A stretch of DNA of 64,000 nucleotides, taken from positions 62,001 to 126,000 of the forward strand of contig NZ_JAPMLT010000008.1 of the NCBI RefSeq assembly GCF_026410385.1. The letters run 5' to 3'. Below are positions 20,103-37,365 of this stretch, piece after piece. Position numbers and translations under genes: made by a program. Numbering within the stretch: position 1 is the first letter of the stretch; each line of letters starts with the position of its first letter. The notes below the pieces were generated by a model. That model was not told where the DNA came from and made no database searches. It was given only the letters and a program-made list of their open reading frames with translations. This DNA comes from Tumebacillus lacus. GTDB taxonomy: Bacteria > Bacillota > Bacilli > Tumebacillales > Tumebacillaceae.

Positions 20103-20121
20103 AAGTGAAATCTCCTTTTAC

Positions 20122-20196
20122 GTGTATATTCTCAGATTCTCCTTCGGTTCGCTGACTGTGATCCTGACAATCCTGCATATACTGCTAAAGAAATAG
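20122..20196 (+). pseudogene. Remnant of a holin-like small toxin gene (Hol-Tox/type I TA-like)
   Basis: A 24-codon frame from GTG 20122 ends FSFGSLTVILTILHILLKK then TAG. A phenylalanine-glycine followed by a single hydrophobic helix and terminal KK is the pattern of the putative holin-like toxins encoded by Bacillales type I toxin-antitoxin loci. There is no ribosome site or ATG; the 5' end overlaps the DUF4259 leader, so it looks truncated. The stop codon sits in the stem of the first of three hairpins, as in intact loci of this kind. Assignment rests on recalled pattern only. Confidence 0.45.
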
Positions 20197-20315
20197 ACCT
20201 CCCTTAAGCTTCCAACGGCTTGGAGGTCTATTCTTTTCAGGTGAGCCGACACCCTTAGAGGGGTATCAGTTGTGTAAAAGACCGTAGGTGTTCCCGCACC
20301 TGCGGTCATTTTTTA
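20192..20315 (+). ncRNA. Three-hairpin RNA 3' region ending in a terminator
   Basis: Hairpin 1: AATAGACCTCC/GGAGGTCTATT (20192-20232) with an inner AAGC/GCTT. Hairpin 2: GACACCC/GGGGTATC (about 20249-20268). Hairpin 3: GACCGTAGGTG/CACCTGCGGTC (20280-20307) followed by ATTTTTT. Together with the toxin-like frame this resembles the 3' part of a toxin mRNA that pairs with an antisense RNA. Fills most of the 330-base gap before the GNAT gene. Confidence 0.5.
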
Positions 20316-20431
20316 GTTTACTCGATGCTTGTAGGTTTATTCTTACACATACAGTTGGAGAATCTCAACTTTTCCTGTTCCATCTCTTCGCAATTTCCTG
20401 TAAAATCCTTGTAATTGATGGGAGCGAAAGG

Positions 20432-21457
20432 ATGAGATGGATGAGAATTCTCCCTTTGCAGGCAGAACATCTCGAGGAGGCGGCTCAACTTTTGGCAGCG
20501 CGCCATCGCGCCGAACGCACAGTGCGTCCGGAACTGCCCGCACAGTTTGAAGAGCCGGAGCACGCGAAGAAAGCCGTTCAGCATCTGGTTGACTCGCCGC
20601 AAGCGGTCGGGCTGGCGGCTGTACGGGACGGAAAATTGGCCGGGTACTTGCTCGGCACTTTGAAGACCAACGACAGTCGGGAACGCCACCTTTGGGTGGA
20701 CTACGCGGGACTCGCACTCGCAGCGGGCGAGTCGGCGGAGGTGTACCGCGACCTGTACGCTGCGCTGGCTGAGATCATCGTGCCGCAAGGATATTTCAAG
20801 CACTATGTGCTCGTGCCAAGCGGCGACGCAGCGGTGGTGGACGCATGGTTCCGGCTGGGATTCGGACACGAGCAGGTGCACGCGGTCATGACGCTGTCTG
20901 ACAGCGATTCCCCCGTCACAAGCCCTGCAACCGACGCCCCCGCTGTGCCCGACCTGACGATCCGCCATGCAGAAAAATCGGACGAGGCCGCCATCCGCGA
21001 CCTCGCGCCGACGATCCTGCAGCACCAAGTCCGCACCCCGGTCTTCTCCGCGACTCTCCCCGGCGAGACGTCGCAACTCCAAGACGGCTATGCCGGACTG
21101 CTCGACGAAGCGGACGTGACATTCTGGCTCGCGTTCCAAAACGACAAGCCAGTCGGCTACCAAGTGTTCTGGCCCGAGGAGCCGTCCGACCACAACTTGC
21201 TCACCCCCGCTCGTTGCATCTCCCTTGGCGTCGGCGGCACCGTTCCGTCCGCACGGGGTCTTGGCATCGGGCAGACGGTGGTGCGGCACGGACTGCACCA
21301 CGCCCGCGAGCAGGGCTGGCAGGTCTGCTCCTCCGACTGGCGCATGACCAACCTGCTCTCCTCCCGCTTCTGGCCCAAGCAAGGCTTCCAGCCGGTCGCC
21401 TGCCGTCTGTTCCGCCAGATCGATCCGCGCATCGTCTGGGCAGACGGTCGGGGCTGA
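20432..21457 (+). CDS. Tandem GNAT-domain acetyltransferase
   Basis: A 341-residue protein of two GNAT folds. The N-terminal copy (about 1-155) keeps the fold (HLWVDYAGLAL, DAWFRLGFGHEQ) but lacks a clear acetyl-CoA loop. The C-terminal copy (about 175-341) starts LTIRHAEKSDEAAIRDL and has SARGLGIGQTVVRHGL, the R/Q-x-x-G-x-G/A pyrophosphate-binding motif, so it is likely the active half. Acceptor unknown. The start at 20432 is set by GGGAG seven bases upstream; a second ATG nine bases later is possible. Convergent with the his operon across a shared hairpin. Confidence 0.85.
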   Translation: MRWMRILPLQAEHLEEAAQLLAARHRAERTVRPELPAQFEEPEHAKKAVQHLVDSPQAVGLAAVRDGKLAGYLLGTLKTNDSRERHLWVDYAGLALAAGESAEVYRDLYAALAEIIVPQGYFKHYVLVPSGDAAVVDAWFRLGFGHEQVHAVMTLSDSDSPVTSPATDAPAVPDLTIRHAEKSDEAAIRDLAPTILQHQVRTPVFSATLPGETSQLQDGYAGLLDEADVTFWLAFQNDKPVGYQVFWPEEPSDHNLLTPARCISLGVGGTVPSARGLGIGQTVVRHGLHHAREQGWQVCSSDWRMTNLLSSRFWPKQGFQPVACRLFRQIDPRIVWADGRG

Positions 21458-21502
21458 TCGCCAGTTGAGAAGAACGCAGTTCATGCCAGACACAGCACAT
21501 AA

Positions 21503-21540
21503 AAGAAGCGACCCCTCTTTCTCTTCGAGGGGCCGCTTCT
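21503..21540 (-). terminator. Terminator of the his operon
   Basis: Minus strand AGAAGCG-CCCCTC / GAGGGG-CGCTTCT stem then TTTTATG. Also placed to stop GNAT transcripts. Confidence 0.8.
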
Positions 21541-21541
21541 G

Positions 21542-22216
21542 TTATTTGTTTTTGATATCTTTCTTCGCGTGGCGCGCTTCCAGCAGAGCCAGCACGTTGT
21601 CAAACGAGAGCTTCTGCTCTTGCAACAGCACCAGCAGATGATAGATCACATCGCCCGCTTCGGCGGTCAGTTCTTCCTTGTCGCCTTTCATGGCGGCGAT
21701 CACGACTTCGGTGGCTTCTTCGCCGATCTTTTTCAGGATCTTTTCCAGACCCTTTTCAAACAGGTACGTGGTGTACGCGCCTTCCGGTCGCTTTGCGTCA
21801 CGCTCGGCGATGGTCTGCAACAGCTCGTCGAGGATCGCATAGCGGTGGCCCGCCTGCTGTTTTGCCGCTCGTTCACTTGACGCATAGCCCGGTGCTTCTT
21901 CAAAGAAACAGCTGTACGAGCCCGTGTGGCACGCCGGTCCCGTCTGCTCCACCTCGGCCAGCAGCGTGTCGCGGTCGCAGTCGTACCCAAACCGCACGAC
22001 GCGCTGCGTGTGACCGGACGTCGCGCCTTTGTTCCATAGCTGCTCTCGGGAGCGCGACCAGAACCAGGTCTGCCCGGTCTCCACCGTCAGGATGATCGAC
22101 TCGCGGTTCATGTAGGCGAGCATCAGCACGTCACGGCTCTGCACGTCCTGCACGATGCAAGGGATCAGGCCGGTAGCCGGGTCGTATTTCAGATTCTCGA
22201 TCCACTCGTAGCTCAT
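21542..22216 (-). CDS. hisIE: Bifunctional phosphoribosyl-AMP cyclohydrolase / phosphoribosyl-ATP pyrophosphatase
   Basis: Catalyses steps 2 and 3 of histidine synthesis. HisI domain (1-about 115) has [11 protein letters not shown] and [13 protein letters not shown] with the zinc cysteines; HisE domain (about 125-224) has [27 protein letters not shown] and [11 protein letters not shown]. 224 residues is normal for the fused protein. Last gene of the operon; its ATG overlaps the hisF stop by 4 bases (ATGA). Confidence 0.97.
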
Positions 22217-22974
22217 CGGATCGCCACCCCGCGTTCTTTCAAATATTTTTTCACTTCGGTCACGGTCGTCTCTTTGAAGTGGAAGATCGAAGCAGCCAGC
22301 CCCGCATCCGCTTTGCCTTCGGTAAAGACGTCGTAGAAGTGCGACATCTCCCCGGCACCACCCGACGCGATCACCGGGATCTTCACCGCTTCGCCGACGC
22401 GGCGGGTCAACTCGACGTCAAAGCCGCTCTTTTGCCCGTCTTGGTCGAACGAGGTCAACAGGATCTCGCCCGCACCGAGGCGTTCGACTTCCTTCGCCCA
22501 CTCGATGACGCGCAGCTCGGTCGGCTTTTTTCCGGCGTGGATCACGACGATCCAGTCTTGCAGCCCGTCGTCCCATTTGCCGTCGATGGAGACGACGACG
22601 CATTGAGTGCCGAACCGCTTCGCCGCATCGGTGATCAGCTGCGGCGTTTTCACAGCTGCCGTGTTGATCGCCACTTTGTCTGCGCCCGCTTTCAAGATCT
22701 CGCGGAAATGATCGACCTGCGACACGCCGCCGCCGACGGTGAACGGGATGAACACTTGGTCGGCGGTGCGGCGTACGATGTCGAGCAGGGTGCCGCGATT
22801 TTCATCGGTGGCGGTGATGTCGAGCAGGACCAGTTCGTCGGCCCCTTGCTCTTCGTAGATCTTCGCCAGCTCGACCGGGTCGCCCGCATCCCGCTCGTTG
22901 GTCAGGAAGGAGACGTTTTTGACGACGCGGCCGTTTTTGATGTCAAAGCAGGGGATGATGCGCTTGGTCAACAT
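22213..22974 (-). CDS. hisF: Imidazole glycerol phosphate synthase, cyclase subunit
   Basis: TIM-barrel subunit that uses ammonia from HisH to form IGP and AICAR. Starts [19 protein letters not shown] with the catalytic Asp at residue 11; [10 protein letters not shown] carries the second catalytic Asp near 130; GGGV and ASGGAG are phosphate-binding loops. 253 residues, standard. Its start shares one base with the hisA stop (TGATG). Confidence 0.97.
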
Positions 22975-23729
22975 CAGGCCCGACCTCCCGTCACCGTCTG
23001 ACCCACGTCCCGGATCGCCGTCGCGAGGTCGATGTTGCCGTTGTAGATCGCTTTGCCGATGATCGAGCCGATCACGCCTTGGCCACGATACTTCGCCAGC
23101 TCCAGCAGGTCGCCCGTCTCCTTGATGCCGCCCGACGCGATCACGCCAAGGCCGGTCTTTTCCGCCATCTCGACGGTCGCCGCCACGTTCGGTCCGGTGA
23201 GAGTGCCGTCGCGGGAGATGTCGGTGAAGATGACGGTCGTCGCACCCGCCGCCTTCAGCTCGCAGCCCAGTTCCACGGCGGTGATCGACGACGTCTCCAG
23301 CCAGCCGTTGACGGCGACGAAACCGTCTTTGGCATCGATGCCGATGGCGATCTTCTCCCCGTATTCCTTCAGTGCTTCCCGTACAAATTCCGGCTGGTTC
23401 ACCGCCGCTGTGCCGAGAATCGCCCGCGACACGCCGAGGGCAAACAGGGCTTCCAGCGTATCGCCGTTGCGGATGCCGCCGCCCACTTGCACGGGCAGGC
23501 CGGACGCTTGGACGATCGCTTCGATCACCGGACGGTTGTGCGGCGAGCCTTCTTTCGCGCCGTTGAGGTCGACGACGTGGAGATATCTCGCCCCCGCCTC
23601 CTTAAATCGACGGGCGACAGCAGCCGGGTCGGCGTCATAGACGGTCTTTTGCTCATAGTCGCCTTTATACAGACGGACGGCCTGCCCGTCGAGCAGGTCG
23701 ATCGCCGGGTACAACAAAAATTCGCTCAT
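22974..23729 (-). CDS. hisA: ProFAR isomerase (HisA)
   Basis: Isomerises ProFAR to PRFAR. TIM barrel of 251 residues starting MSEFLLYPAIDLLDGQAVRL (catalytic Asp near 10), with VQVGGGIR, IFTDISRDGTLTGPN (second catalytic Asp region) and VIASGGI. The frame is open 68 codons further upstream into hisH, but the ATG at 23729 overlaps the hisH stop by 4 bases and gives the family length. Confidence 0.97.
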   Translation of the reverse strand: MSEFLLYPAIDLLDGQAVRLYKGDYEQKTVYDADPAAVARRFKEAGARYLHVVDLNGAKEGSPHNRPVIEAIVQASGLPVQVGGGIRNGDTLEALFALGVSRAILGTAAVNQPEFVREALKEYGEKIAIGIDAKDGFVAVNGWLETSSITAVELGCELKAAGATTVIFTDISRDGTLTGPNVAATVEMAEKTGLGVIASGGIKETGDLLELAKYRGQGVIGSIIGKAIYNGNIDLATAIRDVGQTVTGGRA

Positions 23730-24355
23730 GCGTTGACTCCCTCTTTCGCCGCGGTGACGATGTTCACGAAATTGCCCAGCAATTGCAGGCCGACACGGCT
23801 GGATTTTTCCGGGTGGAACTGAATGCCGCACACGTTGCCAAGACCTACGATGCCCGGCACGTCGCCGTAGTAGTCGGTGGTGGCGAGCACGACAGCAGGA
23901 TCTGTCGGTTCGACGACCAGAGAATGCACCCAATAGACATAGTCGCCGTCCGCCACGCCGTTCAGCATCGGGTGCTCACGGCGCAAAGTCAGGTCGTTCC
24001 AGCCGATGTGCGGGATCTTGAAATCGCCTTGGAACATCCGCACATGGCCTTTCAGCAGGTTGAGCCCTTCAAACAGGGCGTGTTCGTCGGAGGTGGTGAA
24101 CAAGAGCTGCATGCCAAGGCAGATGCCGAGAAACGGCGTGCCCGCCGCCACCACGTCGCGGATCACCGGGATCAGCCCTGCCTCTCGCAGGTTTTCCATC
24201 GCGTCGCCAAATGCGCCCACGCCAGGCAGGATCACGCCGTCCGCCATGCGGACGACGTTCGGGTCGGACGTGACGGTGACTTCCGCCCCGAGCGTCTCCA
24301 GCGCTTTTTCCACCGAGCGCAGGTTGCCCATGCCGTAGTCGATGATCGCGAACAT
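23726..24355 (-). CDS. hisH: Imidazole glycerol phosphate synthase, glutaminase subunit
   Basis: Class I glutamine amidotransferase of 209 residues feeding ammonia to HisF. MFAIIDYGMGNLRSVEKAL opens the family; LGICLGMQLL holds the catalytic Cys near residue 79; GIQFHPEKSS gives the catalytic His and Glu near 187-189. One base separates its start from the hisB stop. Confidence 0.97.
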   Translation of the reverse strand: MFAIIDYGMGNLRSVEKALETLGAEVTVTSDPNVVRMADGVILPGVGAFGDAMENLREAGLIPVIRDVVAAGTPFLGICLGMQLLFTTSDEHALFEGLNLLKGHVRMFQGDFKIPHIGWNDLTLRREHPMLNGVADGDYVYWVHSLVVEPTDPAVVLATTDYYGDVPGIVGLGNVCGIQFHPEKSSRVGLQLLGNFVNIVTAAKEGVNA

Positions 24356-24356
24356 C

Positions 24357-24956
24357 CTACAGCACTCCTTTCGTCGACAGCACGCCGCGCACGTTCGGAT
24401 CGCGGTAGACCGCTTCCGAGAGTGCACCGCCAAACGCTTTGAACAGCCCCTCGATCATGTGATGCGTGTTGGTGCCGTAGTGGCAGTTCAGATGCAGGGT
24501 GACGCCCGCATTGCCGACAAACGCTCGGAAAAATTCTTCCACCAGCTCGGTGTTGAACGTGCCCACGTACTCCTTGGGAAATTCGGCGTTGAAGACGAGG
24601 AAGGAACGGCCGGAGATGTCGAGGGTCGCTTGGCACAGTGCCTCGTCCATCGGCGTAAAACGGTTGCCGTAGCGCTTGATGCCCGCTTTGTCGCCGATGG
24701 CCTCCTTGAACGCTTTGCCAAGGCAGATGCCGATGTCCTCGACGGTGTGGTGATCGTCGATGTCGACGTCTCCCTGCGCGTTGATCGTCAGGTCAAATCC
24801 GCCGTGCTTGGCGAACAGATCGAGCATGTGACGCAGGAACGGCACCGGGATGTTCAGTTCGCGGGTGCCTGCCCCGTCCAGATTGAGCTTCAGTTCGATC
24901 TGCGTTTCGGTGGTGTCGCGTTTGATCTCGCTGACTCGTGCGAGTGCGTCGGTCAT
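24357..24956 (-). CDS. hisB: Imidazoleglycerol-phosphate dehydratase
   Basis: Monofunctional HisB of 199 residues, without the N-terminal histidinol-phosphatase domain of the E. coli fusion; that activity is supplied by the hisK gene at 7.3-8.1 kb. Mn-binding signatures FLRHMLDLFAKHG, DDHHTVEDIGICLG and NTHHMIEGLFKAFG are intact. Start overlaps the hisD stop by 4 bases. Confidence 0.97.
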   Translation of the reverse strand: MTDALARVSEIKRDTTETQIELKLNLDGAGTRELNIPVPFLRHMLDLFAKHGGFDLTINAQGDVDIDDHHTVEDIGICLGKAFKEAIGDKAGIKRYGNRFTPMDEALCQATLDISGRSFLVFNAEFPKEYVGTFNTELVEEFFRAFVGNAGVTLHLNCHYGTNTHHMIEGLFKAFGGALSEAVYRDPNVRGVLSTKGVL

Positions 24957-26239
24957 TGAATGCTTCCTCCCTCTTTTTGCAGGCGGATACGCACCGCGTT
25001 GGCATGCGCGTCCAGCCCCTCTGTCTCCGCCAGCGCGATGATCTTCTCCCCGTTGGCCAGCAGAGCTTGTTTGCCGTACTGGATCACCGACGATTTTTTT
25101 ACAAAATCATCGAGGGACAGCGGCGAAGAAAATCGTGCGGTGCCGTAGGTCGGCAATGTATGGTTCGGTCCGGCGAAGTAATCGCCCACCGGTTCGGTCG
25201 AATACGGGCCGAGGAAGATCGCCCCGGCATTTTCAATGCGCCCCAGCCACTCGGTCGGCTGAGCCACCATCAGTTCCAGATGCTCCGGCGCGATCCGGTT
25301 CGCCACCTCCACCGCTTCGTCGAGGTCTTTTGTGACGAGGATCGCCCCTTGTCCGCGTATCGCCGCCTCGGCGATCTCGCGGCGCGGCAGTTTCCCGATC
25401 TGCTCGACGAGTGCCGTCGCGACGCGCATGGCGAGGTCGTGACTCGGCGTGACGCAGATCGACTGCGCCATCGGGTCATGCTCCGCCTGAGAGAGCAGAT
25501 CGGCCGCCACATAGTCCGGGTCGGCCGTCTCGTCCGCGATGACGAGAATGTCGGAGGGTCCTGCGATCATGTCGATGGCGACAAGGCCATACACCGCCTG
25601 TTTTGCCAGCGCGACGTAGACGTTGCCAGGGCCGGTGATCTTGTCCACCGGGCGGATCGTCTCCGTCCCGTAGGCGAGCGCGCCGATCGCCTGCGCACCG
25701 CCGATTCGGTACGCTTCGGTGATGCCGAGTTCCTTCAGCGCGACGAGGATGCCCGGATGCACGCGGCCTTCTGCGTCCGGCGGCGTGGTGACGACGATCT
25801 CCGGCACACCGGCGACTTGCGCCGGGATCACGTTCATCAGCGCGGTCGACGGCAACGGCGCGAGACCGCCCGGCACATAGACCCCGACCCGTTTCAACGG
25901 GCGCACGATCTGGCCGAGCAGCGAGCCGTCCGCGCTCGGCAGCATCCACGACGTGCGCTTTTGCGCTTCATGGTAGACGCGGATGTTGACGATCGCCTCG
26001 CGCAACGCCTCCACAAAAGCGGGGGTCACCTGCGCGTAGGCCGACTCGTACATCTCGTCCGGGATGCGCAGGTCGTCCAGCTCCGCCCGGTCGAACCGCT
26101 TCGTCAAATCGCGAACGGCCGCATCGCCTTTTGCCCGCACCTCAGAGAGAATGCTCTGCACCGCCTCCCGCTGCTCCGTCAGATTTTCCGTCTGATCGCG
26201 GTCGAGTCTATACTCTGCCGCCGGAAGCACCTTGATCAT
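24953..26239 (-). CDS. hisD: Histidinol dehydrogenase
   Basis: Zinc- and NAD-dependent oxidation of histidinol to histidine, the last two steps. 428 residues with VPGGLAPLPSTALMN, IGGAQAIGALAYGTETI, KITGPGNVYVALAK, AGPSDILVIADETADP and the C-terminal NHTLPTYGTARFSSPLS. Start overlaps the hisG stop by 4 bases. Confidence 0.97.
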   Translation of the reverse strand: MIKVLPAAEYRLDRDQTENLTEQREAVQSILSEVRAKGDAAVRDLTKRFDRAELDDLRIPDEMYESAYAQVTPAFVEALREAIVNIRVYHEAQKRTSWMLPSADGSLLGQIVRPLKRVGVYVPGGLAPLPSTALMNVIPAQVAGVPEIVVTTPPDAEGRVHPGILVALKELGITEAYRIGGAQAIGALAYGTETIRPVDKITGPGNVYVALAKQAVYGLVAIDMIAGPSDILVIADETADPDYVAADLLSQAEHDPMAQSICVTPSHDLAMRVATALVEQIGKLPRREIAEAAIRGQGAILVTKDLDEAVEVANRIAPEHLELMVAQPTEWLGRIENAGAIFLGPYSTEPVGDYFAGPNHTLPTYGTARFSSPLSLDDFVKKSSVIQYGKQALLANGEKIIALAETEGLDAHANAVRIRLQKEGGSIQ

Positions 26240-26880
26240 ACCGTCTCCTCCTTCTTCACCACCGGGCGCAGCAGGCGGACAAACTCGTCAATCGCTTGGC
26301 TTTTCAACCGGAAGCTCATCCGGTTGGCCACCAATCGCGTCGAGATGTCCATGATGTCCTCTTGCACCACCAGTCCGTTCTCCTTCAGCGTGCGGCCCGT
26401 CTCCACCACGTCGACGATCCGCTCCGCCAGCCCGATCAGCGGAGCGAGCTCCACCGACCCGTTCAGAAAAATCACTTCCACCTGTTGCCCGCGACCCCGG
26501 AAATACTCGGTGGCGATGCGGGGATATTTGGACGCGACGCGGGGCATCGCATAGTGCGCCGGCTTCTCCGGCAGACCGGCGACCGACATTTTGCAGCGGC
26601 CGATGTTCAGGTCGAGCAGTTCATACAGATCGCGGCCCGCCTCGACGAGCACGTCTTTGCCGACCACGCCGAGGTCGGCGACGCCGTATTCCACATAGGT
26701 CGGCACGTCGACCGGCTTGGCGAGGATAAACTCGATCTCACCGCCCATGCTCGGCAGGATCAATTTGCGCGACGTTTCGATGTCCTGCGGCACGGGGAGG
26801 CCCGCTTCACGCAGCAGATCGAGCGTCTGGTCCATGATCCGCCCTTTTGACAGGGCGACGGTCAAACCTTGTATGGTCAT
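26236..26880 (-). CDS. hisG: ATP phosphoribosyltransferase, short form
   Basis: First committed step of histidine synthesis, condensing ATP and PRPP. 214 residues, lacking the C-terminal regulatory domain, so it needs HisZ, encoded directly upstream. TVALSKGRIMDQTLDLL, GVADLGVVGKDVL and the PRPP loop IVDVVETGRTLKENGL are visible. AAGGAG lies 9 bases before the ATG. Confidence 0.97.
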   Translation of the reverse strand: MTIQGLTVALSKGRIMDQTLDLLREAGLPVPQDIETSRKLILPSMGGEIEFILAKPVDVPTYVEYGVADLGVVGKDVLVEAGRDLYELLDLNIGRCKMSVAGLPEKPAHYAMPRVASKYPRIATEYFRGRGQQVEVIFLNGSVELAPLIGLAERIVDVVETGRTLKENGLVVQEDIMDISTRLVANRMSFRLKSQAIDEFVRLLRPVVKKEETV

Positions 26881-26901
26881 GAGGGAAAACTCCTTTTTCG
26901 A

Positions 26902-28143
26902 TTAGAGGCTGAACATGTGCGAAAAATCGGTGTACAGCGCGGAAACCAGTTTGTCGCGGGTGATCAGCTTGCCCGCTTGGAAGGCGATCACCAGCACGTC
27001 GTCCGGACGCTTCACCGCCACTTCCGCCGCCACGTCTTCCACGCGCTGCGCCGTGACGATAAACCGCTTCGAACGCAGGAACGCGGCAAACCCGATCACC
27101 GGGTAGCGGTCGCGCTCCTCATAGAGCAGCAGATAGCGCTCCGCCGCCTTTTGCGGCATGCTCTTTTCCAGCACGTCGAGCACGCGCTCGATGCCGATCA
27201 TAAATCCGGTCGCCGGTGTCTGCCGGCCAAACTTGCCGACCAGTTCGTCATAGCGCCCGCCCGAGCAGACCGGGAACCCGACATGAGGCGCGTATCCTTC
27301 AAAGATCGCGCCGGAGTAGTACTCGCGGCCGAGCAGAAGGCTCAGGTCGATCTGCAAAAACTCCTCGGTGTTGTGCAGTTGCAACACCTTCCAGATCGAA
27401 TCGAGGTTGTCGAGAGCGGCCAGCGCTTGTGCCGACGATGTCAACGCCCGCGCCCGCTTCAGCACATCGAGGCTCCCGCGCAGGCGCGGCACTTCCAGCA
27501 ACACCTCGCGCGCCTTTTCCTCCGCCACATCCGCGGTGACGATCCGCTCGTAGCCGACGATGTCCTTGGCGAGCAGCGCATCCGACAGCCGGGCGCGCAC
27601 CGCCTCGCTGTCCACATGTTCGGCAAACAGCCCCTGCAGATAGGCCACCTGTCCGATGGCCAGCCGGAACCCGGCCACCCCCGCCTCCTGCAACGCGGTG
27701 ATCGCCAGCGCGATCACTTCGGCGTCCGCATCGGGCGTCGCATCGCCGAGCAGTTCCACGCCCGACTGCGTAAACTCCGCATCGCGCCCGGCCGCCGGGT
27801 CCTGCTGGCGGAAGATCGGCGCGTTGTAGGAGAGTCGCAGCGGCAACGGCTGCTCTTTGAGCAACGACGACACCACGCGGGCGATCGGCGCCGTCATGTC
27901 CGGGCGCAGCACGACGGTGCGGCCGGACCGCTCGATAAATTTAAACAGGTTGTCTTCCTCATCCCGGAACGCCCCGTTCAGGAAGGTATCCGCATATTCG
28001 AACGTCGGAGTGACGATCTCTTCGTATCCCCAGCGTTGAAACACTTTGGCAACTCTCTTTTCCACTTCGCGCTTGCGAGCAGCAAGCGGCGGCAGCACGT
28101 CGCGCACACCGCGCGGCTTTTCAAACAAAATCGGTTTTTCCAT
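26902..28143 (-). CDS. hisZ: ATP phosphoribosyltransferase regulatory subunit
   Basis: HisRS-like paralogue of 413 residues that activates and gives histidine feedback to short HisG. Opens EKPRGVRDVLPP; contains VVLRPDMTAPIARVV (motif 2-like), LPLRLSYNAPIFRQQDP and CSGGRYDELVGKFG. First gene of the operon. The ribosome site GAAGAAGG abuts the ATG at 28143, so initiation is either weak or a few codons downstream. Its leader of about 50 bases has no room for a T-box. Confidence 0.95.
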   Translation of the reverse strand: MEKPILFEKPRGVRDVLPPLAARKREVEKRVAKVFQRWGYEEIVTPTFEYADTFLNGAFRDEEDNLFKFIERSGRTVVLRPDMTAPIARVVSSLLKEQPLPLRLSYNAPIFRQQDPAAGRDAEFTQSGVELLGDATPDADAEVIALAITALQEAGVAGFRLAIGQVAYLQGLFAEHVDSEAVRARLSDALLAKDIVGYERIVTADVAEEKAREVLLEVPRLRGSLDVLKRARALTSSAQALAALDNLDSIWKVLQLHNTEEFLQIDLSLLLGREYYSGAIFEGYAPHVGFPVCSGGRYDELVGKFGRQTPATGFMIGIERVLDVLEKSMPQKAAERYLLLYEERDRYPVIGFAAFLRSKRFIVTAQRVEDVAAEVAVKRPDDVLVIAFQAGKLITRDKLVSALYTDFSHMFSL

Positions 28144-28199
28144 CCTTCTTCACGTCCAATGCTTTAGTCTGCTAATATACTAAAGAGTTTGCTACGGTT

Positions 28200-28228
28200 A
28201 TCCTAACACGGGTGTTAGGATGTGTCAA
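28200..28228 (-). promoter_or_regulatory. his operon promoter with embedded palindromic operator
   Basis: Minus strand: -35 TTGACA (28223-28228), 17-base spacer, -10 TAGGAT (28200-28205). The region 28200-28221 is a perfect inverted repeat: ATCCTAACAC and its exact complement around a 2-base centre. It covers the spacer and the -10, so a bound repressor would block RNA polymerase. A HisR/YerC (TrpR-fold) regulator is a candidate from knowledge of Firmicutes his control; the regulator is not in the window. Confidence 0.75.
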
Positions 28229-28240
28229 TCCGCGCTTATG

Positions 28241-28279
28241 AAAACAGCCACGGCGCAAATCTCGCACCGTGGCTGTTTT
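28241..28279. terminator. Symmetric terminator upstream of the his promoter
   Basis: AAAACAGCCACGG/CCGTGGCTGTTTT, 13-bp stem with T runs on both strands; second barrier between yvoF and the his operon. Confidence 0.75.
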
Positions 28280-28386
28280 CTCGTTAGGAACACGAAGCCC
28301 GTCACATCTCGACGCCGCAGCTTTTCGCAAAGCCCCCCATCGGCGGAGAATGAAAGGTATTTAAGCAGGTATTTACAACGCCAGCA

Positions 28387-28433
28387 GAAAAAACTCCTGC
28401 TCCACTGTAGAAATATTTTTCTAGTGGAGGAGT
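28387..28433 (-). terminator. Terminator of the yvoD-ppaX-yvoF operon
   Basis: Minus strand ACTCCTCCACT...AGTGGAGCAGGAGT then TTTTTT; the stop codon of yvoF lies in the left arm. Confidence 0.75.
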
Positions 28434-28972
28434 ATCGTCTGATCGGCGGACGGTACGTCGAGTTGCTGTTCATCGCCCTCGGCACGGGATTCGGCCGTGC
28501 GGATGATCCGGATCGGATTGCCGCCGACGAACGCACCGGCGGGCACGTCGCGGTTGACCAGCGACCCGGCCGCGACCACCGCCCCGTCGCCGATGGTGAT
28601 GCCGGGGAGCAGCGTCGAGTTGGCCCCGATCATCACGTTGTCGCCGATGATCACGCGGCCGAGCCGGTACTCGTCTGTCAGGTATTCATGAGCGAGGATC
28701 GTCGTGTTGTAGCCGATGATCGTGTTGCGACCGACGGAGATGAGCTCCGGGAACATCACGTCCATCATCACCATCAACGCCACCGCCGTCTGATCCCCCA
28801 CCTGCATGCCGAGGAAGGTGCGGTACAGCCAGTTCTTCACGCCGAGAAACGGCGTGTAGCGGGAGAGCTGGATCACCGCAAAGTTTTTGGCCACTTTGAA
28901 AAAGCTGACCGTTTTATACAGTTGCCACAGAGCGTTTGCCCCTTTGACCGGGTAACGGACCGTATCGCGCAT
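28421..28972 (-). CDS. yvoF: Hexapeptide-repeat acyltransferase, YvoF-like
   Basis: A 183-residue left-handed beta-helix acetyltransferase. Hexapeptide repeats appear from about residue 75 (ISVGRNTIIGYNTTILAHEYL, VIIGDNVMIGANSTLLPGITIGDGAVVAAGS) and the protein ends the helix with VGGNPIRII. The N-terminal 70 residues are helical with a hydrophobic patch (VSFFKVAKNFAVIQLSRY). Acceptor unknown. Placement directly after ppaX matches B. subtilis yvoF; the gap to ppaX is 2 bases. Confidence 0.85.
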   Translation of the reverse strand: MRDTVRYPVKGANALWQLYKTVSFFKVAKNFAVIQLSRYTPFLGVKNWLYRTFLGMQVGDQTAVALMVMMDVMFPELISVGRNTIIGYNTTILAHEYLTDEYRLGRVIIGDNVMIGANSTLLPGITIGDGAVVAAGSLVNRDVPAGAFVGGNPIRIIRTAESRAEGDEQQLDVPSADQTILLH

Positions 28973-28974
28973 CG

Positions 28975-29619
28975 TTACTTCTCTCCTCTGATGATCGCTT
29001 CAAGCTCCAGCATGTCCTCGACGAGGAAGTCAGGCCGGTACTCGCGCAGCCCTTCTTCGCCGCGCAGGCTCCATTTCACGCCGATGGTGGCGACGCCGGC
29101 CGCCCTCCCGGCGAGGATGTCATACGGGCTGTCACCGATCATCACCGTCTCGGCCGGCACCGCACCGAGCCTTTCGACCGCTTTGAGCACCGGCTCCGGG
29201 TCGGGCTTGTGCTTGTCCGTGTCTTCGATGGTCAGAAACGCTTCGTGGCAGTCGGGCAGCCCGCACACTTTCCAACCGAGCTCCGCCGTGCGGCGGATCT
29301 TGCTGGTGACGACGGCGATCCGGTACCCGTCGCGGGCCAGCCGCTCGAGCACCTCTTTGGCATGCGGGAACGCGGTGACCAGGTCGTCATGTTGCTCCAT
29401 GTACAGCTGTCGGTAGCGGGCGATCACCTCGTCCATCCGCTCCGGCAAAAATCTCGCCACCTGCACCGACAGCGGCTCACCCATGTGCGGCAAGATGTCC
29501 GCTCTGGAAAATCGTCCGGGCGCAAACTCTTCCAACGCCTGCTCCACGGAGCGCAAGATCAGCTCGTTCGTGTCGAGCAGCGTCCCGTCCAAATCAAACA
29601 GCACATATCGAAAACGCAT
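28975..29619 (-). CDS. ppaX: Pyrophosphatase PpaX (HAD family)
   Basis: Hydrolyses the pyrophosphate released when HPr kinase/phosphorylase dephosphorylates P-Ser-HPr. HAD motif I is FDLDGTLLDTNELI (nucleophile Asp near 9), motif II VVTSK, motif III K followed by PDPEPVL, motif IV MIGDSPYDI. 214 residues matches B. subtilis PpaX. hprK is close by, separated by two genes. AGGAGGAGG precedes the ATG. Confidence 0.92.
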   Translation of the reverse strand: MRFRYVLFDLDGTLLDTNELILRSVEQALEEFAPGRFSRADILPHMGEPLSVQVARFLPERMDEVIARYRQLYMEQHDDLVTAFPHAKEVLERLARDGYRIAVVTSKIRRTAELGWKVCGLPDCHEAFLTIEDTDKHKPDPEPVLKAVERLGAVPAETVMIGDSPYDILAGRAAGVATIGVKWSLRGEEGLREYRPDFLVEDMLELEAIIRGEK

Positions 29620-29641
29620 CTGCTCCTCCTCCTCTGCACCT

Positions 29642-30586
29642 CTACGCCGATGTGTTCGCGGCGTTTTGCACGCCTCGGTTTGCCTTCCAAATCCGCGCCA
29701 GCACCGCCGTCACCACAATCGCGGCGACCAGTCGAATCGCGAGCAAATACCAGCCGTTGACTCCGAGCGGCAGGAACAGCAACGTGTCCTCCACCACCGC
29801 GTGGCAGAGCACGAGGAAGGTGATGATCAGGTACATCTCCCGCTTGCTCAGCGGATGCTCCCGCGTCGCTTCCAAGATCACGCCCGCGCCGTACGCAAGG
29901 CCAAACCAGATCCCGGCCAGCATCGGGATCGCCGCCTTTTCCGACATGCCGAGCCAGCGCAGGAACGGATGGGTCCCATGCGCCAGTTTGTCGAGCACAT
30001 GCAGTTCCTTCAAGATTTGAATCACAAACATCAGCGGAATCACGATCAACGCCAACTGCCACACCGCCGTAAACGCAGTCAGCAACACTTCACCCGCCGT
30101 ATCCAAAATCGGCGTCTGCCACAGATAGCTCGTCGCATGCTGATAGCTCCCGGCCGCCGATGTGATCTCATTTCCCAAGATCAGATGCAGCGAAGCGCCG
30201 GACAGCAGCGCCGTGCCGATGCGGACGCCTACCACAATCGCGCCGGACAGCCCCATCCGTCTCGCCACCGCCGTCTCCACGAACAGATTGTGCGCAAACG
30301 ACATCATCACCGCCAGGATGAAGATCTGCGGCCCCGCCAACTGCAACGAGAAGATCGCGCCGATCCCCGCGTACAGGTTCAGCACCCAGCCGAGCGCCAG
30401 CACGACCGCCGCTTCGCCCGGCAGTCCGACAAAGCTCATCACGGGTGCAAACAACCAGACGATCCACTCGATCACCGGCGTGTGTTTGAGCAGCGTGACG
30501 ATCACCGTGATCGGCACGACGATCTTGCCCAGCGTCCACGTGGTTTTCAAACCGGAGAGCAAGCCGCGCCCCATCATCTCTTTCAT
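29642..30586 (-). CDS. yvoD: Nucleoside-recognition (Gate) domain membrane protein, YvoD-like
   Basis: A 314-residue inner-membrane protein with about eight helices and two Gate/nucleoside-recognition domains (about 35-150 and 185-300). Motifs GLPGEAAVVLALGWVLNLYAG and GIWFGLAYGAGVILE carry the conserved Gly/Ala turns. Related proteins take part in spore metal or solute transport, but a substrate cannot be named. ATG 30586 is nine bases after GGAG. First gene of the yvoD-ppaX-yvoF operon. Confidence 0.85.
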   Translation of the reverse strand: MKEMMGRGLLSGLKTTWTLGKIVVPITVIVTLLKHTPVIEWIVWLFAPVMSFVGLPGEAAVVLALGWVLNLYAGIGAIFSLQLAGPQIFILAVMMSFAHNLFVETAVARRMGLSGAIVVGVRIGTALLSGASLHLILGNEITSAAGSYQHATSYLWQTPILDTAGEVLLTAFTAVWQLALIVIPLMFVIQILKELHVLDKLAHGTHPFLRWLGMSEKAAIPMLAGIWFGLAYGAGVILEATREHPLSKREMYLIITFLVLCHAVVEDTLLFLPLGVNGWYLLAIRLVAAIVVTAVLARIWKANRGVQNAANTSA

Positions 30587-30626
30587 CGTGTGTGACTCCT
30601 CTCCCACTTCCAAGATGCTGACTCAA

Positions 30627-30635
30627 ATTATAGCA
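30627..30635 (-). promoter_or_regulatory. Extended -10 promoter for yvoD-ppaX-yvoF
   Basis: Minus strand TGC followed by a perfect TATAAT. The expected -35 position falls inside the preceding terminator stem. Confidence 0.65.
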
Positions 30636-30637
30636 TA

Positions 30638-30667
30638 AAGAGGCCCGCACCAAGCACGGACCTCTGC
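30638..30667 (-). terminator. Terminator after the LysM/G5/M23 gene
   Basis: Minus strand AGAGGTCCG...CGGGCCTCT (one G-U pair) then TTTA; overlaps the next promoter. Confidence 0.6.
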
Positions 30668-30687
30668 AAAATCAAATATAGGGTGGA

Positions 30688-32160
30688 TCACATATACGGA
30701 GCCGGATTGACCTTCGTTCCGTTGATGCGCGCTTCATAGTGCAGATGCGCGCCCGTCGACCAGCCGGTCGAGCCGACGCCGCCGATGTACTGGCCTTTTT
30801 GCACCGTCTGCCCTGCGGAGACGCTCATCGAATTGAGATGCGCGTACAGGGTGGTGATGCCGTTGCCGTGCGAGATGATGATGCAGTTGCCGTAGCCGTC
30901 GCCCGCATCGCCCGCCTGGATGACAGTACCGCTGTTCGACGCGTAGACCGGCGTGCCGGTCCCCGCTGCGATGTCAATCGCAAAGTGCGGACGTCCGCCG
31001 CGGTTTTCGCCGTAGTGAGACGACACATAGCCGCCGCCGATCGGCCACGCCCAGTCACCGCCGCCTGCTGCCGCCACCGGACCGTTGTAGTACGCCGCTC
31101 CTGCGGAGATCTTGGTCCCTTTGGCGACCACTTCCTTCTTCGGCTCGGTGATCACCGTCTCAGCCAGCACTTCTTCCTTCATGACCGCGCCGTTTTTGGT
31201 GCGCACGCGGACCGTCTGCTTTTTCTTGCCTTCTGCGCCCTGTTCCAGCACTTTCTCCTGGCCTTTGGGGAGCGAATCGTCTTCCTTGTATTCGATCTCG
31301 TAGTTGGTCATGATCTCGCGTTCTTCGTCGTAGGTCGCGAACACGTTGATCAACGGTTCATAGGCGGTCAGGTTGAGCGACTGCCCCTCCTTGATCTCGT
31401 CAACGTTGTGCACGTCCGGATTGGCCTGTTGCAACTCTTCGACGGTGACCTTGTTTTTCTCGGCGATGGTCCACAGCGAATCGCCGCGCGAGACAACGTA
31501 GGTCTTTTTCTCGTTTTTGCCCTGCACGATCAGCGAGTAGGCCGCGTCCGGTGCGAGGATTTTCGATTTGTCTTCTTTGATCGCAACAAAATCGACCTGT
31601 TCGGCAAATGCGACTTTTACATTGGAATCGCTTTTGACAAATTGTCCTTTCAGTTTGCCGACGATCTTTTCGGCGGTCTCTGCGTCTTTGACGTAGGCGA
31701 CGTCCACGCCGTCCACGCGAATCGCCATCATGTCGACGATCGTCTTCGTCGTGTCTTCAATCGCCTGCGCCACGTAGGACTCCTGCGTCGAAACGACCGC
31801 CTGATGCACTTCTTGAAACTCAATGTTTGCTTTGACCTTGTCGCCAAATGCGGTGATCGTCTCTTCGATCAGCGCCTTGTCGCGCACGAGGCCGTGGTAT
31901 TGGCCGTCTATGTATACGCGGTAGACGGTCTCCGTGCCGGCGACCTTGCCGTGGGCGGTCGTGATCCCCACGGTGGCGAGCATCAGAACCGCCAGTGTTG
32001 CCATGGTGTTGCGGATATTAAAAGTCGCGCGAATCTCATCTTTCGCGGCGTCCCAAAATGTCGAATTCTTCATACGGCTGTAATAGGCTTTCATTCTTGC
32101 TTGGCTGCCAGCCACTGCCTGAATCTGTTGTTCAGACGTCTTCTCTGTCAGCTTACCCAT
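30688..32160 (-). CDS. Membrane-anchored LysM-G5-M23 cell wall peptidase
   Basis: A 490-residue cell-wall endopeptidase. One membrane helix (about 51-68), a long outside region (75-215), a LysM peptidoglycan-binding domain (about 219-265, YVVSRGDSLWTIAEKNKVTV), a G5 domain (about 270-348) and a C-terminal M23 domain (about 385-487). Zinc ligands H392 and D396 (PHFAIDIAAG), then H441, H472 and H474 (AHLHYEA) are present, so it should be active. ATG 32160 follows GGGAGGCG; 42 upstream codons in frame lack support. B. subtilis has lgt at this position, so the gene is a lineage-specific replacement. Confidence 0.9.
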   Translation of the reverse strand: MGKLTEKTSEQQIQAVAGSQARMKAYYSRMKNSTFWDAAKDEIRATFNIRNTMATLAVLMLATVGITTAHGKVAGTETVYRVYIDGQYHGLVRDKALIEETITAFGDKVKANIEFQEVHQAVVSTQESYVAQAIEDTTKTIVDMMAIRVDGVDVAYVKDAETAEKIVGKLKGQFVKSDSNVKVAFAEQVDFVAIKEDKSKILAPDAAYSLIVQGKNEKKTYVVSRGDSLWTIAEKNKVTVEELQQANPDVHNVDEIKEGQSLNLTAYEPLINVFATYDEEREIMTNYEIEYKEDDSLPKGQEKVLEQGAEGKKKQTVRVRTKNGAVMKEEVLAETVITEPKKEVVAKGTKISAGAAYYNGPVAAAGGGDWAWPIGGGYVSSHYGENRGGRPHFAIDIAAGTGTPVYASNSGTVIQAGDAGDGYGNCIIISHGNGITTLYAHLNSMSVSAGQTVQKGQYIGGVGSTGWSTGAHLHYEARINGTKVNPAPYM

Positions 32161-32284
32161 GCTTTCGCCTCCCGTTTGCACTGTGATCCCCAAAGTGTTG
32201 TTTATTTTTTTAGACTTTTCTCTGTCCGACACTTTAGATTCGACACATTCCGCCACGTTCCTCCCGCAGACACAAAAAAGCCAC

Positions 32285-32320
32285 AAAAAAAGAGGAAAAC
32301 GGTCAATTGCCGTTTCCCTC
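32285..32320 (-). terminator. Terminator overlapping the end of hprK
   Basis: Minus strand GAGGGAAACGG/CCGTTTTCCTC then TTTTTTT; the hprK stop is inside the hairpin. Confidence 0.85.
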
Positions 32321-33241
32321 TTCCATCGAGCGAGTCATGCGTTCGGACAGATCCCGGGCCGCGTTGTAGCCCATGCGCTTCAAACGCTGGTTCATCGCCG
32401 CCACCTCTAAAATAACGGCGAGGTTGCGGCCCGGACGGACCGGCAGGAGGATGCAGGGCACGTCGACGTCGAGGATCTGGATCATCTCTTCGTCGAGGCC
32501 GAGACGGTCGTACGCCGTCTGATCCTCCCACATCTGGAGTTTGATCACCAGTTCGATGTCCTTGTGCGTGCGGATCGCGCCTGCGCCGAACAACGTCATC
32601 ACGTTGAGCACGCCAAGGCCCCGGATCTCGATCAGGTGGCGCAGCAGTTCCGGTGACGTGCCTTCGAGGATCGTTTCGCCGATCTGGCGGATCTCGACGG
32701 CGTCGTCGGCAACCAGTCGATGTCCCCGCTTGACCAATTCCAGCGCCGTCTCGCTTTTGCCGATGCCGCTGGTACCGGTGATCAGGATGCCGATGCCGTA
32801 GACGTCGACCAGCACGCCGTGCATCACCGTCTCTTTGGCCAACTCCCGGTCCAGATAGGACAGGAGCCGTCCGGTCATCACCGATGTCGACTCCGGCGAG
32901 CGCAGGATCGGCAGTCGGTGACGACTCGCCGCCGCCAACAGCTGCTCCGGGATCTCCAAGTTGCGCGAAACGATGATGCAAGGCGTCTCCTCGTAGGTGC
33001 AGATCTTCTCGGCCCGCAGATCCTTGACCTGATCGGACAGCGATTCAAAAAAAGAGACCTCCGTCTTGCCGAGCACCTGCACCCGCTCAAACGGGTGATA
33101 CGTCGTATACCCGGCGAGCGCGAGACCCGGTCGCGACAGGTCGCCGACGGTGATCGGACGCTCGGTGTCCGCTCCGGGATTGACCAATTGCAGGTGGAAC
33201 TCTTGGATCAACTGCGAGGTGGAGATCGACTTGGTCACCAT
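32303..33241 (-). CDS. hprK: HPr kinase/phosphorylase
   Basis: Bifunctional sensor enzyme that phosphorylates HPr on Ser46 and removes it by phosphorolysis, the centre of carbon catabolite control in Firmicutes. Walker A GTSGIGKS at 156-163, catalytic H141 in MHGVLVDVYG, VADDAVEI, and the signature IEIRGLGVLNVMTLFGAGAI. 312 residues, standard. Seven bases separate it from the upstream epimerase gene, so both are co-transcribed. Confidence 0.97.
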   Translation of the reverse strand: MVTKSISTSQLIQEFHLQLVNPGADTERPITVGDLSRPGLALAGYTTYHPFERVQVLGKTEVSFFESLSDQVKDLRAEKICTYEETPCIIVSRNLEIPEQLLAAASRHRLPILRSPESTSVMTGRLLSYLDRELAKETVMHGVLVDVYGIGILITGTSGIGKSETALELVKRGHRLVADDAVEIRQIGETILEGTSPELLRHLIEIRGLGVLNVMTLFGAGAIRTHKDIELVIKLQMWEDQTAYDRLGLDEEMIQILDVDVPCILLPVRPGRNLAVILEVAAMNQRLKRMGYNAARDLSERMTRSMEEGNGN

Positions 33242-33248
33242 GTCAGAC

Positions 33249-34184
33249 TCACTCCTTGTCCGGCGAGTAGACGGTGCGGCCCCAGGCCACCGTCTTTTGC
33301 AAACCGTCTTCCAGCGACGTCTGCGGGCGCCACTGCGGCAACAGTTCGCCGATGCGGCGGTTCGACAGCGAGCTCAGATAGATATCGCCGATGCGAGCCG
33401 GGCCGCGCACCGCGTCTTGCGGGTAGCCGACCGCCCGTTTCATCGTGTCAAACAGCTCGTTGACCGACACCTGCGTCTCCGTCGAGACGTTGACCGTGCC
33501 GATCACGTCCGACTCCAGCGCGATCACGACCGCCTTCGCCACATCCTCGATATAGATGTAGTCGCGGGTCGCGCCGCCGTCGCCTTCGATGGTGACCGGC
33601 AGACCTTTGATCATGTTCTCCATAAAGATCGAGACCACGCCGCCTTCGCCGGTCCGGCCTTGGCGCGGGCCGTAGATGTTGGCATAGCGCAAGATCATGT
33701 AGTTGACACCGAACAGTTCGCCGTACATGCGTATGTATTCTTCATCCACTTTTTTGCTCAACCCGTAGAAAGACATCGGGCGCTTTGGATGTTCTTCGTC
33801 GACAGGCAAGTAGTCCGGCTGCCCGTAGATCGCGGCAGAACCGGCAAACAGGAACCGCTTGATCTTCAAATGACGGGCCGCTTCCAGCAGTTTGATCGTG
33901 CCGATGATGTTCACATGAGCATCATGATCGGGATGTGTGATCGAATCGGTCACCTTGATCTGTGCCGCTTGGTGGCAGATCGCCTCGATCCCTTCCTCTT
34001 TGATCAGATCGAAGAGCTTCGGGTCATTGATGTCCATGTTGAAAAAGACGGCCGCCTGAGGGACGTTGTGCTTCGAACCGGTGGCGAGATTGTCGACGAT
34101 GACGACCTCATGCCCGGCTGCGAGCAGCGCATCTGCAATGTGCGAGCCGGCAAACCCAGCCCCGCCCGTAACGAGTACTTTCAT
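33249..34184 (-). CDS. NAD-dependent epimerase/dehydratase, GalE-like
   Basis: Extended short-chain dehydrogenase of 311 residues. NAD loop TGGAGFAGSH (6-15), catalytic S116 (FAGSAAIYG) and Y140-x-x-x-K144 (SFYGLSKK), and substrate-side RYANIYGPRQ. Probably interconverts a UDP-sugar such as UDP-glucose/galactose or N-acetyl forms. Member of the GalE/UDP-glucose 4-epimerase branch rather than dTDP-glucose dehydratase, judging by length and RYANVYG-type motif. Translationally close to hprK; not found here in B. subtilis. Confidence 0.88.
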   Translation of the reverse strand: MKVLVTGGAGFAGSHIADALLAAGHEVVIVDNLATGSKHNVPQAAVFFNMDINDPKLFDLIKEEGIEAICHQAAQIKVTDSITHPDHDAHVNIIGTIKLLEAARHLKIKRFLFAGSAAIYGQPDYLPVDEEHPKRPMSFYGLSKKVDEEYIRMYGELFGVNYMILRYANIYGPRQGRTGEGGVVSIFMENMIKGLPVTIEGDGGATRDYIYIEDVAKAVVIALESDVIGTVNVSTETQVSVNELFDTMKRAVGYPQDAVRGPARIGDIYLSSLSNRRIGELLPQWRPQTSLEDGLQKTVAWGRTVYSPDKE

Positions 34185-34220
34185 AACTGCTTCCTCCTCA
34201 AGATGCCTATAGATACCCGT

Positions 34221-34229
34221 ATCATACCA
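34221..34229 (-). promoter_or_regulatory. Extended -10 promoter for the epimerase-hprK unit
   Basis: Minus strand TGG followed by TATGAT, 37 bases before the ATG; directly abuts the preceding terminator. Confidence 0.5.
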
Positions 34230-34263
34230 AAAAATGCGCCGGGTAGCGACACCGGCGCATTTT
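34229..34263 (-). terminator. Terminator after the YvlD-like gene
   Basis: AAAATGCGCCGG/CCGGCGCATTTT perfect 12-bp stem then TT on the minus strand. Confidence 0.8.
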
Positions 34264-34270
34264 CATGGCG

Positions 34271-34612
34271 TTACTCGTCGCCAAACAGCGCGCCCAGCAC
34301 GCCGCTGACGAGCGCCAGCACAATCGCCCCCCAAAAGGCCGTCCAAAACCCTTCCACATGAAACCCGCCGACCAGCGAACTCGTCAGCATCAACAGGACC
34401 GCGTTGATCACCAGCGCAAAAAGCCCGAGCGTCAAGACGGTGACCGGCAGCGTAAACAGTTTCACCACCGGCTTGATGAACGCGTTGATCAAGCCGAGCA
34501 CCAGCGCGGCCAGAAACGCCGCCCCCACCGTGTCAAACCAGATCCGGTCGAACAGCCACGCCACGATCAGCAGGGCGCCTGCTGACACCAGCCATCGCAT
34601 GAGCAAACCCAT
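34271..34612 (-). CDS. Phage-holin-family (PF04020) membrane protein, YvlD-like
   Basis: A 113-residue protein with four membrane helices. LINAFIKPVVKLFTLPVTVLTLGLFALVINAVLL is the characteristic PF04020/YvlD core. Despite the family name it is a chromosomal membrane protein; B. subtilis yvlD sits upstream of hprK and belongs to a cell-envelope stress operon. GAGGAGGG precedes the ATG. Function is unclear. Confidence 0.85.
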   Translation of the reverse strand: MGLLMRWLVSAGALLIVAWLFDRIWFDTVGAAFLAALVLGLINAFIKPVVKLFTLPVTVLTLGLFALVINAVLLMLTSSLVGGFHVEGFWTAFWGAIVLALVSGVLGALFGDE

Positions 34613-34664
34613 GAGACATCCCTCCTCTTGAGTCAGACATACGTTTCACCTGCCGAAAAGTTTC

Positions 34665-35876
34665 CTACCGCATCCGCCCCACCGCAAATAAAGGCGCGTC
34701 CGGGTGCTGTCCGCAAAGGATCAGCTCTTTGATGATCTCACCGGCGATGATCGCGTAGACCGTGCCGTTGCCGCCGTAACCGAGGGCGTAGTAGCAGTTT
34801 TCGTGGAACGGATGCTCGCCGATAAACGGCAGCCCGTCCTTCGTCCCGCCAAACGCCGCCGTCCACCGATGCGAGATCTTCAGATCGGCAAACGCCGGAA
34901 ACAGTGTTTTCAACTCGATCAGCAACTGCTCCGCCTTTTGCGGCAACAGGTTGTCCCGCTTGGGCCCTTCAAACGCCGACTCATCGAGCCCGCCGACCAC
35001 GATCCGGTCATCGAACGTCGTCCGCATGTAGAGATACGGCCGCGCCGTCTCCCAGATCAGACACCGGGAGGCATAGGAGGAAAAATCACGGACCGGCTCT
35101 GTGGCGATCGCATAGGAGCTCTCCACCACCGCGCCCGGTGTGCGCTGATTTTCCTGCGCCTCATAGCCGGTGGCGATCACCGCTTTTTTCGCCCGCACGA
35201 TCTGCCCTTCGCTCGTGCGCAGGCAGACTCGGCCGTTCTCGTGAAAAATCGAACAAACCTCCGTCTCCTCGTACACGCGCAGGTTTTTCCGCGCGGCGTG
35301 CCGCACCAGCGCATGGGCAAATCGAAACGGATTCAGTTCCGCATCGCCGGTCGCATGCAACGCCGCCGCTTTGCGAAACGGAAACTGCTCCGCCACCTGC
35401 TCCTCCGTCCAATAGGCAACGGGAAATCCATACCGGGTCTGCAGCGCATACTCGGCCTCCAGCTTTTTCACGTCTTTCTCCGACGACGCATAGTACAGAC
35501 TGTCCCGCCGTTTGAATTCAATCGGGTCTGCCAGCGTGTGCGACATGTGATCGAGCACGTCCACCGCCCGCTGGCACAGCTTGTAATAGCGCACCGCCAC
35601 GTCCAGCCCCAGCGAGTCGGCCAACTGGTGCATCGGCGCGTCATTCGAATATTGAATCAGCCCTGTGTTGGCACTCGTCGATCCATATCCCACGCGGCGA
35701 CGCTCCAGCATCACCGTATCCACCCCGTGCTCCGAGAGCTGGTAGGCGCAGTTTGCGCCGCCTTCCCCGCCGCCGACCACCACCACGTCGCAGGTCAAGT
35801 CCTCCTGCAGACGGGGATAGGCAGGCGCATCGGGAAACGTCTCCACCCACAGCAGGCCGCCCTCTTTCAGATCCAT
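34665..35876 (-). CDS. FAD-dependent oxidoreductase (DAO family)
   Basis: A 403-residue cytoplasmic flavoprotein. FAD-binding VVVGGGEGGANCAYQLSEHG near residues 32-50, GYGSTSANTGLIQ following it, and the C-terminal LPFIGEHPFHENCYYALGYGGNGTVYA typical of the DAO/GlpO/SoxA fold. Probably oxidises an amine or amino acid with oxygen; the substrate is not evident and it has no metabolic neighbours here. GGAGGCGATCGGAG precedes the ATG. 52 bases upstream of the YvlD-like gene, possibly one transcript. Confidence 0.85.
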   Translation of the reverse strand: MDLKEGGLLWVETFPDAPAYPRLQEDLTCDVVVVGGGEGGANCAYQLSEHGVDTVMLERRRVGYGSTSANTGLIQYSNDAPMHQLADSLGLDVAVRYYKLCQRAVDVLDHMSHTLADPIEFKRRDSLYYASSEKDVKKLEAEYALQTRYGFPVAYWTEEQVAEQFPFRKAAALHATGDAELNPFRFAHALVRHAARKNLRVYEETEVCSIFHENGRVCLRTSEGQIVRAKKAVIATGYEAQENQRTPGAVVESSYAIATEPVRDFSSYASRCLIWETARPYLYMRTTFDDRIVVGGLDESAFEGPKRDNLLPQKAEQLLIELKTLFPAFADLKISHRWTAAFGGTKDGLPFIGEHPFHENCYYALGYGGNGTVYAIIAGEIIKELILCGQHPDAPLFAVGRMR

Positions 35877-35920
35877 CTCCGATCGCCTCCTCGTTCCTTG
35901 CGAGTTGGAACTAGTATGCC

Positions 35921-35978
35921 AAAAAAAGGGGTGAAAGATGCCGCCGATCCGTCACCGAATCTCGCATACTTTCACCCG
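35921..35978 (-). terminator. Long-armed terminator after the 215-residue unknown gene
   Basis: Minus strand GGGTGAAAG...CTTTCACCC with further ATGC/GCAT pairing, long loop, then TTTTTTT. Confidence 0.7.
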
Positions 35979-36002
35979 TTGATTCATATAAAAGAGAGTA
36001 GC

Positions 36003-36650: not shown

Positions 36651-36800
36651 ACGATTCCCCTTATCCGTTCATTTCCCTGCTCACGACTTCACCGCGACAG
36701 GGAGATACGCACATCCTACTAAAGCATCTGCCGAAACGCAACCCCTTCTTACATTGTAAATGAAAATATTCCCCATATATTTGAGAAGAAGGTGTCAATT

Positions 36801-37351: not shown

Positions 37352-37365
37352 GCGTCCGGGTCTGT

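Follow-up and report, generated by a model that had tools for sequence, protein, structure and literature searches.

An array of half-sites in 8-bp register as the predicted HisR operator of the his operon in Tumebacillus lacus

In Tumebacillus lacus, the operon for histidine biosynthesis begins with hisZ, and its promoter is overlain by a perfect palindrome, which a first-pass annotation took to be the site of a repressor. Is this palindrome the operator of the operon, or does the operator lie elsewhere? The window, i.e., the whole stretch of 64,000 nucleotides that was analysed (contig NZ_JAPMLT010000008.1, positions 62,001 to 126,000), supplies the positions used throughout. The features of the his locus are:

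28200–28228, minus strand: sigma-A type promoter TTGACA-17-TAGGAT with a TG extension, conserved in relatives
28200–28221, no strand: the reported 10-2-10 palindrome, with a right arm (read on the minus strand) that is the extended −10 and a left arm private to the species
28144–28193, minus strand: predicted hisZ leader, which contains the operator (transcription start placed 7 nt after the −10)
28162–28185, minus strand: CTTTAGTATATTAGCAGACTAAAG, predicted from its conservation and register to be the site of HisR for this operon
26902–28143, minus strand: hisZ, which opens the his operon (TIGR00443, 342.8 bits)
21542–26880, minus strand: remainder of the his operon, hisG, hisD, hisB, hisH, hisA, hisF and hisIE (names from reading the translations)

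The hisZ promoter and the conserved element in its leader

The −35 (28228–28223) and the −10 (28205–28200) on the minus strand form the TTGACA-17-TAGGAT promoter that had been described beneath the palindrome, and this is the sole promoter-like site detected in 27000–29500. The hisZ gene starts at 28143, giving a leader of about 50 nt, which had been said to lack a T-box. Our searches agree: a T-box or other RNA at the leader was rejected, as no Rfam match was found at gathering thresholds in 20000–40000. No terminator-like site was found in the hisZ leader on the minus strand. A scan of the genome contigs for HisZ gave one locus only. Upstream of hisZ (28421–29619) are the genes for heptaprenylglyceryl phosphate O-acetyltransferase and PpaX, and between the acetyltransferase gene and the his promoter there is a 17-bp near-perfect hairpin with a 7-nt loop (28240–28280), which is probably a terminator; similar GAAAACAG(C/T)CACGG hairpins are present directly before the promoter in three congeners (L014–L016).

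The sequence CTTTAGTATATTAGCAGACTAAAG comprises three TA-centred half-sites, 8 bp apart, in the form TTTA-N6-TA-N6-TAAA. It lies 14 nt downstream of the −10 and, counted from the inferred transcription start, spans roughly +9 to +32. HisZ searches yielded 13 relatives within the order, of which 12 were scored (the locus of the other, L042, is truncated, and its leader was read separately). In all 12, the −10 is followed at a distance of 10 to 17 bases by a counterpart of the element, and the 24-mer pattern is matched with at most one mismatch in 11 of them and with five mismatches in L036. The columns of the element are identical in six of six family relatives at 20 of its 24 positions, and TTTA-N6-TA-N6-TAAA is present upstream of hisZ in all 14 genomes of the order. 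Within the T. lacus genome itself, the 24-mer occurs once at up to three mismatches.

Across the class, the 24-mer is found at up to two mismatches in 87 of 398 genomes; a control with the reversed pattern gave three forward matches and one reverse match in the same 398. All 30 of the loci from other Bacilli that were opened adjoin histidine genes: 22 hisZ, three hisD, and five a permease that we take to be YuiF. This name derives from the resemblance among the five loci and from the published regulon (PMC9413887). Thus, the site at 28162–28185 is conserved upstream of genes for histidine biosynthesis and transport.

An 8-bp register across hisZ leaders and before hisJ

The spacing of the half-sites was examined in 76 hisZ leaders from 75 genera across the class (genus g60 was counted twice), using the pattern TT[TC]A-(N6-TA)k-AA. 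This sample leaves out every one of the 30 loci picked with the 24-mer, eight redundant loci of the order, ten loci that repeat a genus (judged by eye), and L131, which has no HisZ match. With a period of 8, k=2 is found in 42 leaders and k of 3 to 5 in 25; with periods of 4–7 and 9–14, k=2 is found in none or one and k of at least 3 in none, and dinucleotide shuffles of the 76 leaders give means of 0.2 (k=2) and 0.015 (k of at least 3). Distances between TA steps peak at lags of 8 (z=16.8) and 16 (z=9.4), and those of 5 and 13 are likewise high (z of 13.3 and 6.5), which we attribute to a further TA within the spacer.

At least three half-sites are present in 65 of the 76 leaders, the longest array per leader having three half-sites in 40, four in 18, five in seven, two in one, and none in ten. 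The genera are related to one another, so the counts cannot be treated as independent; that arrays differ in length speaks against common inheritance of one sequence. Four of the ten leaders without a strict array hold degenerate arrays by eye (L106, L110, L133 and L161), a short reading frame rich in histidine is seen by eye in L127, and L129 (genome G017) has a T-box (129.2 bits), with no HisR above the cut-off in its genome. From the other classes of the phylum, 40 loci were fetched and 38 gave usable hisZ leaders: k=1 is found in 15, k=2 in 12, k=3 in six and k=4 in three (a leader may count repeatedly), and other periods give at most 3, 2, 0 and 0, respectively. In one of these genomes (L200), overlapping runs extend over about seven steps before hisG.

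Within the window, TTYA-N6-TA-N6-TAAA matches at two places only, before hisZ and before hisJ, where shuffles expect 0.02; each match falls on both strands, the ends and centre of the pattern reading alike both ways. The second locus consists of:

8155–8176, minus strand: another array that keeps this register, TTTAGTCAGATAACGTGATAAA, immediately next to the ribosome-binding site of hisJ and 8 nt upstream of the gene
7334–8146, minus strand: hisJ-type PHP histidinol-phosphatase (NF005596, 330.6 bits, cut-off 202)

The product of hisJ acts in the same pathway as those of the his operon, yet the gene is outside the operon. The array before it came up unsought and gives the register its strongest single support. 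Among six syntenic stretches of relatives, hisJ was located in three and the other three are without it; in all three with hisJ, a three-step register with degenerate ends is seen upstream by eye, and one of the three passes the strict pattern. Common to three relatives is also a block like TTTATG(C/T)(C/A)CGTCC, which in the window is at 8193–8212 (minus strand), about 20–35 nt upstream of the hisJ array.

HisR as the predicted regulator, and the alternatives

The genome has one clear TrpR-family gene (PF01371, 119.6 bits), which scores 156.1 bits with TIGR02531 yecD_yerC (cut-off 42.2), and a HisR gene is present in all 14 genomes of the order. The main text of PMC9413887 names the YerC family HisR and reports histidine-dependent binding of the Ruminococcus gnavus protein to its site. 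Solved structures of relatives of the protein are 3kor, 3g1c and 3frw. Among the 77 genomes searched for HisR, one gave no match and one more gave a sub-threshold match only, a contrast of low power: HisR was not found in the draft genome G090, although its hisZ leader holds an array, and absence of HisR can be compared with absence of an array in one case only, that of G017 with its T-box. The leader from G090 (L136) has a run of direct 8-bp repeats, TTTAGCGTGATAAAGTGATAAAGCGATAAAGTGATAAA. Autoregulation of hisR is no more than a lead: upstream of hisR itself, no array and no clear site were found in T. lacus; a relaxed single-dimer pattern, run with no control, matches upstream of hisR in five of 13 loci of the order, all five in the family. 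The 14th locus of the order (L090) was not located for this comparison, and HisR loci left out as unparsed numbered four in one reading and one in another.

It is very probable, in our judgement, that histidine-dependent HisR represses both the his operon and hisJ from arrays in 8-bp register, which could seat tandem dimers, and that the palindrome is coincidental. HisR, a TrpR-family protein, would bind the array at 28162–28185 and not the palindrome; each pair of neighbouring half-sites would seat one dimer, such that three half-sites could hold two overlapping dimers in tandem over about +9 to +32. In this position, just downstream of the −10, HisR would stand in the way of RNA polymerase whenever histidine is abundant. 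Tandem dimers are proposed because the half-site centres of the TrpR consensus are also 8 bp apart and coincide with those of HisR (main text of PMC9413887), and because PMC8745587 reports synthetic operators occupied by TrpR dimers in tandem. The first-pass annotation, in which a YerC/HisR-like repressor was the best candidate, was right in part: this protein, whose gene is present, is probably the regulator, whereas its predicted site is 28162–28185 instead of the palindrome.

Each array might instead hold only one HisR dimer, placed on the best 14-bp core, the extra half-sites being low-affinity overlapping copies or reflecting constraints from other factors. The published motif is 20 bp long and a 30-bp R. 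gnavus probe with one such site was bound (main text of PMC9413887), so that in R. gnavus a single dimer is enough, and here the best single core of the operator, ATTA-N6-TAAA, fits the published core by itself (as ATTA-GCAGAC-TAAA) at seven of eight letters. We regard this as unlikely: across many families, the outer and inner TA steps keep strictly to the 8-bp register for three to five steps, while the sequence of the array interior is free to vary. To return to the tandem dimers, a broader form of that proposal is somewhat more likely than not, namely, that HisR operators are, instead of single palindromes, extendable arrays of half-sites in strict 8-bp register, on which dimers polymerise side by side, and that lineages tune repression by adding or losing half-sites 8 bp at a time. 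The number of half-sites varies among lineages, from 2 to 5 (the range in Bacilli) and occasionally more, up to about seven read upstream of hisG in a genome outside that class.

The palindrome itself is real. Direct reading of the sequence confirms a perfect 10-2-10 inverted repeat, ATCCTAACAC-GG-GTGTTAGGAT, at 28200–28221, which on the minus strand overlaps part of the promoter spacer and all of the −10. In the window there are 14 perfect inverted-repeat matches (arm of at least 10, loop of at most 10), falling at six places, and eight Markov surrogates of the window hold 0–4 each under the same limits (mean about 1.6). A calculation from the surrogates gives a chance of roughly 1 in 1000 that a perfect repeat falls on any one 29-bp promoter. 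Thus, the palindrome is unusual in its place and not in its existence: it is a rare coincidence for a given promoter, but not for a scan of 64 kb.

Its role as a repressor site is not upheld. The first-pass annotation had proposed a scan of relatives and had itself named lack of conservation as counting against its claim, and the palindrome is absent from all 12 relatives scored: with the promoters lined up, 1–5 of the ten positions pair in the same 10-2-10 frame, as against ten in the window. In an alignment of seven sequences from the family, the right arm is largely kept and the left arm is not; the conserved right arm is the TG-extended −10, GTTAGGAT or GGTAGGAT, whereas the columns of the left arm, one excepted, agree in none to two of the six family relatives. 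The TA steps of the palindrome are 12 bp apart, in contrast to 8 bp in HisR sites, and lie at −35 and −23 from the first step of the operator, i.e., out of the 8-bp register. Because it is unconserved and its TA spacing is not like that of HisR, the palindrome was rejected as a HisR site and is most likely a species-specific coincidence on a conserved extended −10. As a regulon motif it was rejected too, since no second copy at up to three mismatches was found in the whole genome, and thus none before other genes.

Could the palindrome nevertheless be a young, species-specific second operator, at which HisR or another dimeric repressor blocks the −10? Its rarity on any given promoter and its ideal placement speak for this, as does a 7-6-7 inverted repeat, in a different frame, at the −10 of the congener L014; moreover, the closest relatives compared have HisZ proteins only about 73% identical, leaving room for a very young operator. 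Set against the absence from the relatives, the single copy in the genome (i.e., no regulon), the 12-bp spacing of the TA steps, which does not suit HisR, and the extended −10 that already accounts for the right arm, we consider a second operator improbable. Control by RNA (T-box, histidine leader peptide or attenuator), with the repeats as RNA stems, has taken the place of HisR in other Bacilli, as the T-box of G017 and perhaps the short histidine-rich peptide of L127 illustrate, but it has very little chance of governing the operon here, where the leader (L012 included) has neither an Rfam match nor a terminator-like site on the minus strand and where the conserved feature is the spacing of TA steps and not pairing.

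Relation to known operators and significance

The operator here belongs to a type already described, in a variant form. With the HisR (YerC) regulon, as given in the main text of PMC9413887, it shares a TrpR-family repressor gene, a site within the leader of a his operon that starts with hisZ, TTTA and TAAA caps, and, in relatives, his genes and yuiF-like permeases as targets. It differs in that the published site is a single 20-bp palindrome, cacTTTAnnnnnnTAAAgtg, whereas three half-sites (TTTA-N6-TA-N6-TAAA) are found here, with the caps 14, not 6, bases apart and one TA step between them in register. The exact 20-bp consensus is not present at 28162–28185, and the published motif, taken literally, was rejected as a description of this site. 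No HisR arrays are described in the main text of PMC9413887 (searched for the words tandem and dimer), and a literature search for tandem HisR sites or newer work on YerC, with supplements outside its scope, found nothing on point beyond that paper.

The trp operators of Escherichia coli have a CTAG-like core instead of TTTA/TAAA and a different corepressor; the arrays described here, on which tandem binding is predicted, reach four to five or more half-sites. Natural trp operators bind different numbers of dimers. In other Firmicutes, the same genes are under T-box and attenuator control (main text of PMC9413887), whereas the leader in T. lacus is without such an RNA.

In sum, an operator call that was plausible but mistaken is corrected, and HisR sites gain a rule that can be tested: a pattern in 8-bp register singles out only two sites in 64 kb, each ahead of a histidine gene, and accounts for sites only partly fitted by the 20-bp motif. 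If dimers do stack on such arrays, HisR would provide a natural series of operators for one to four or more dimers, which may be useful for studying the evolution of cooperativity in a repressor with the TrpR fold.
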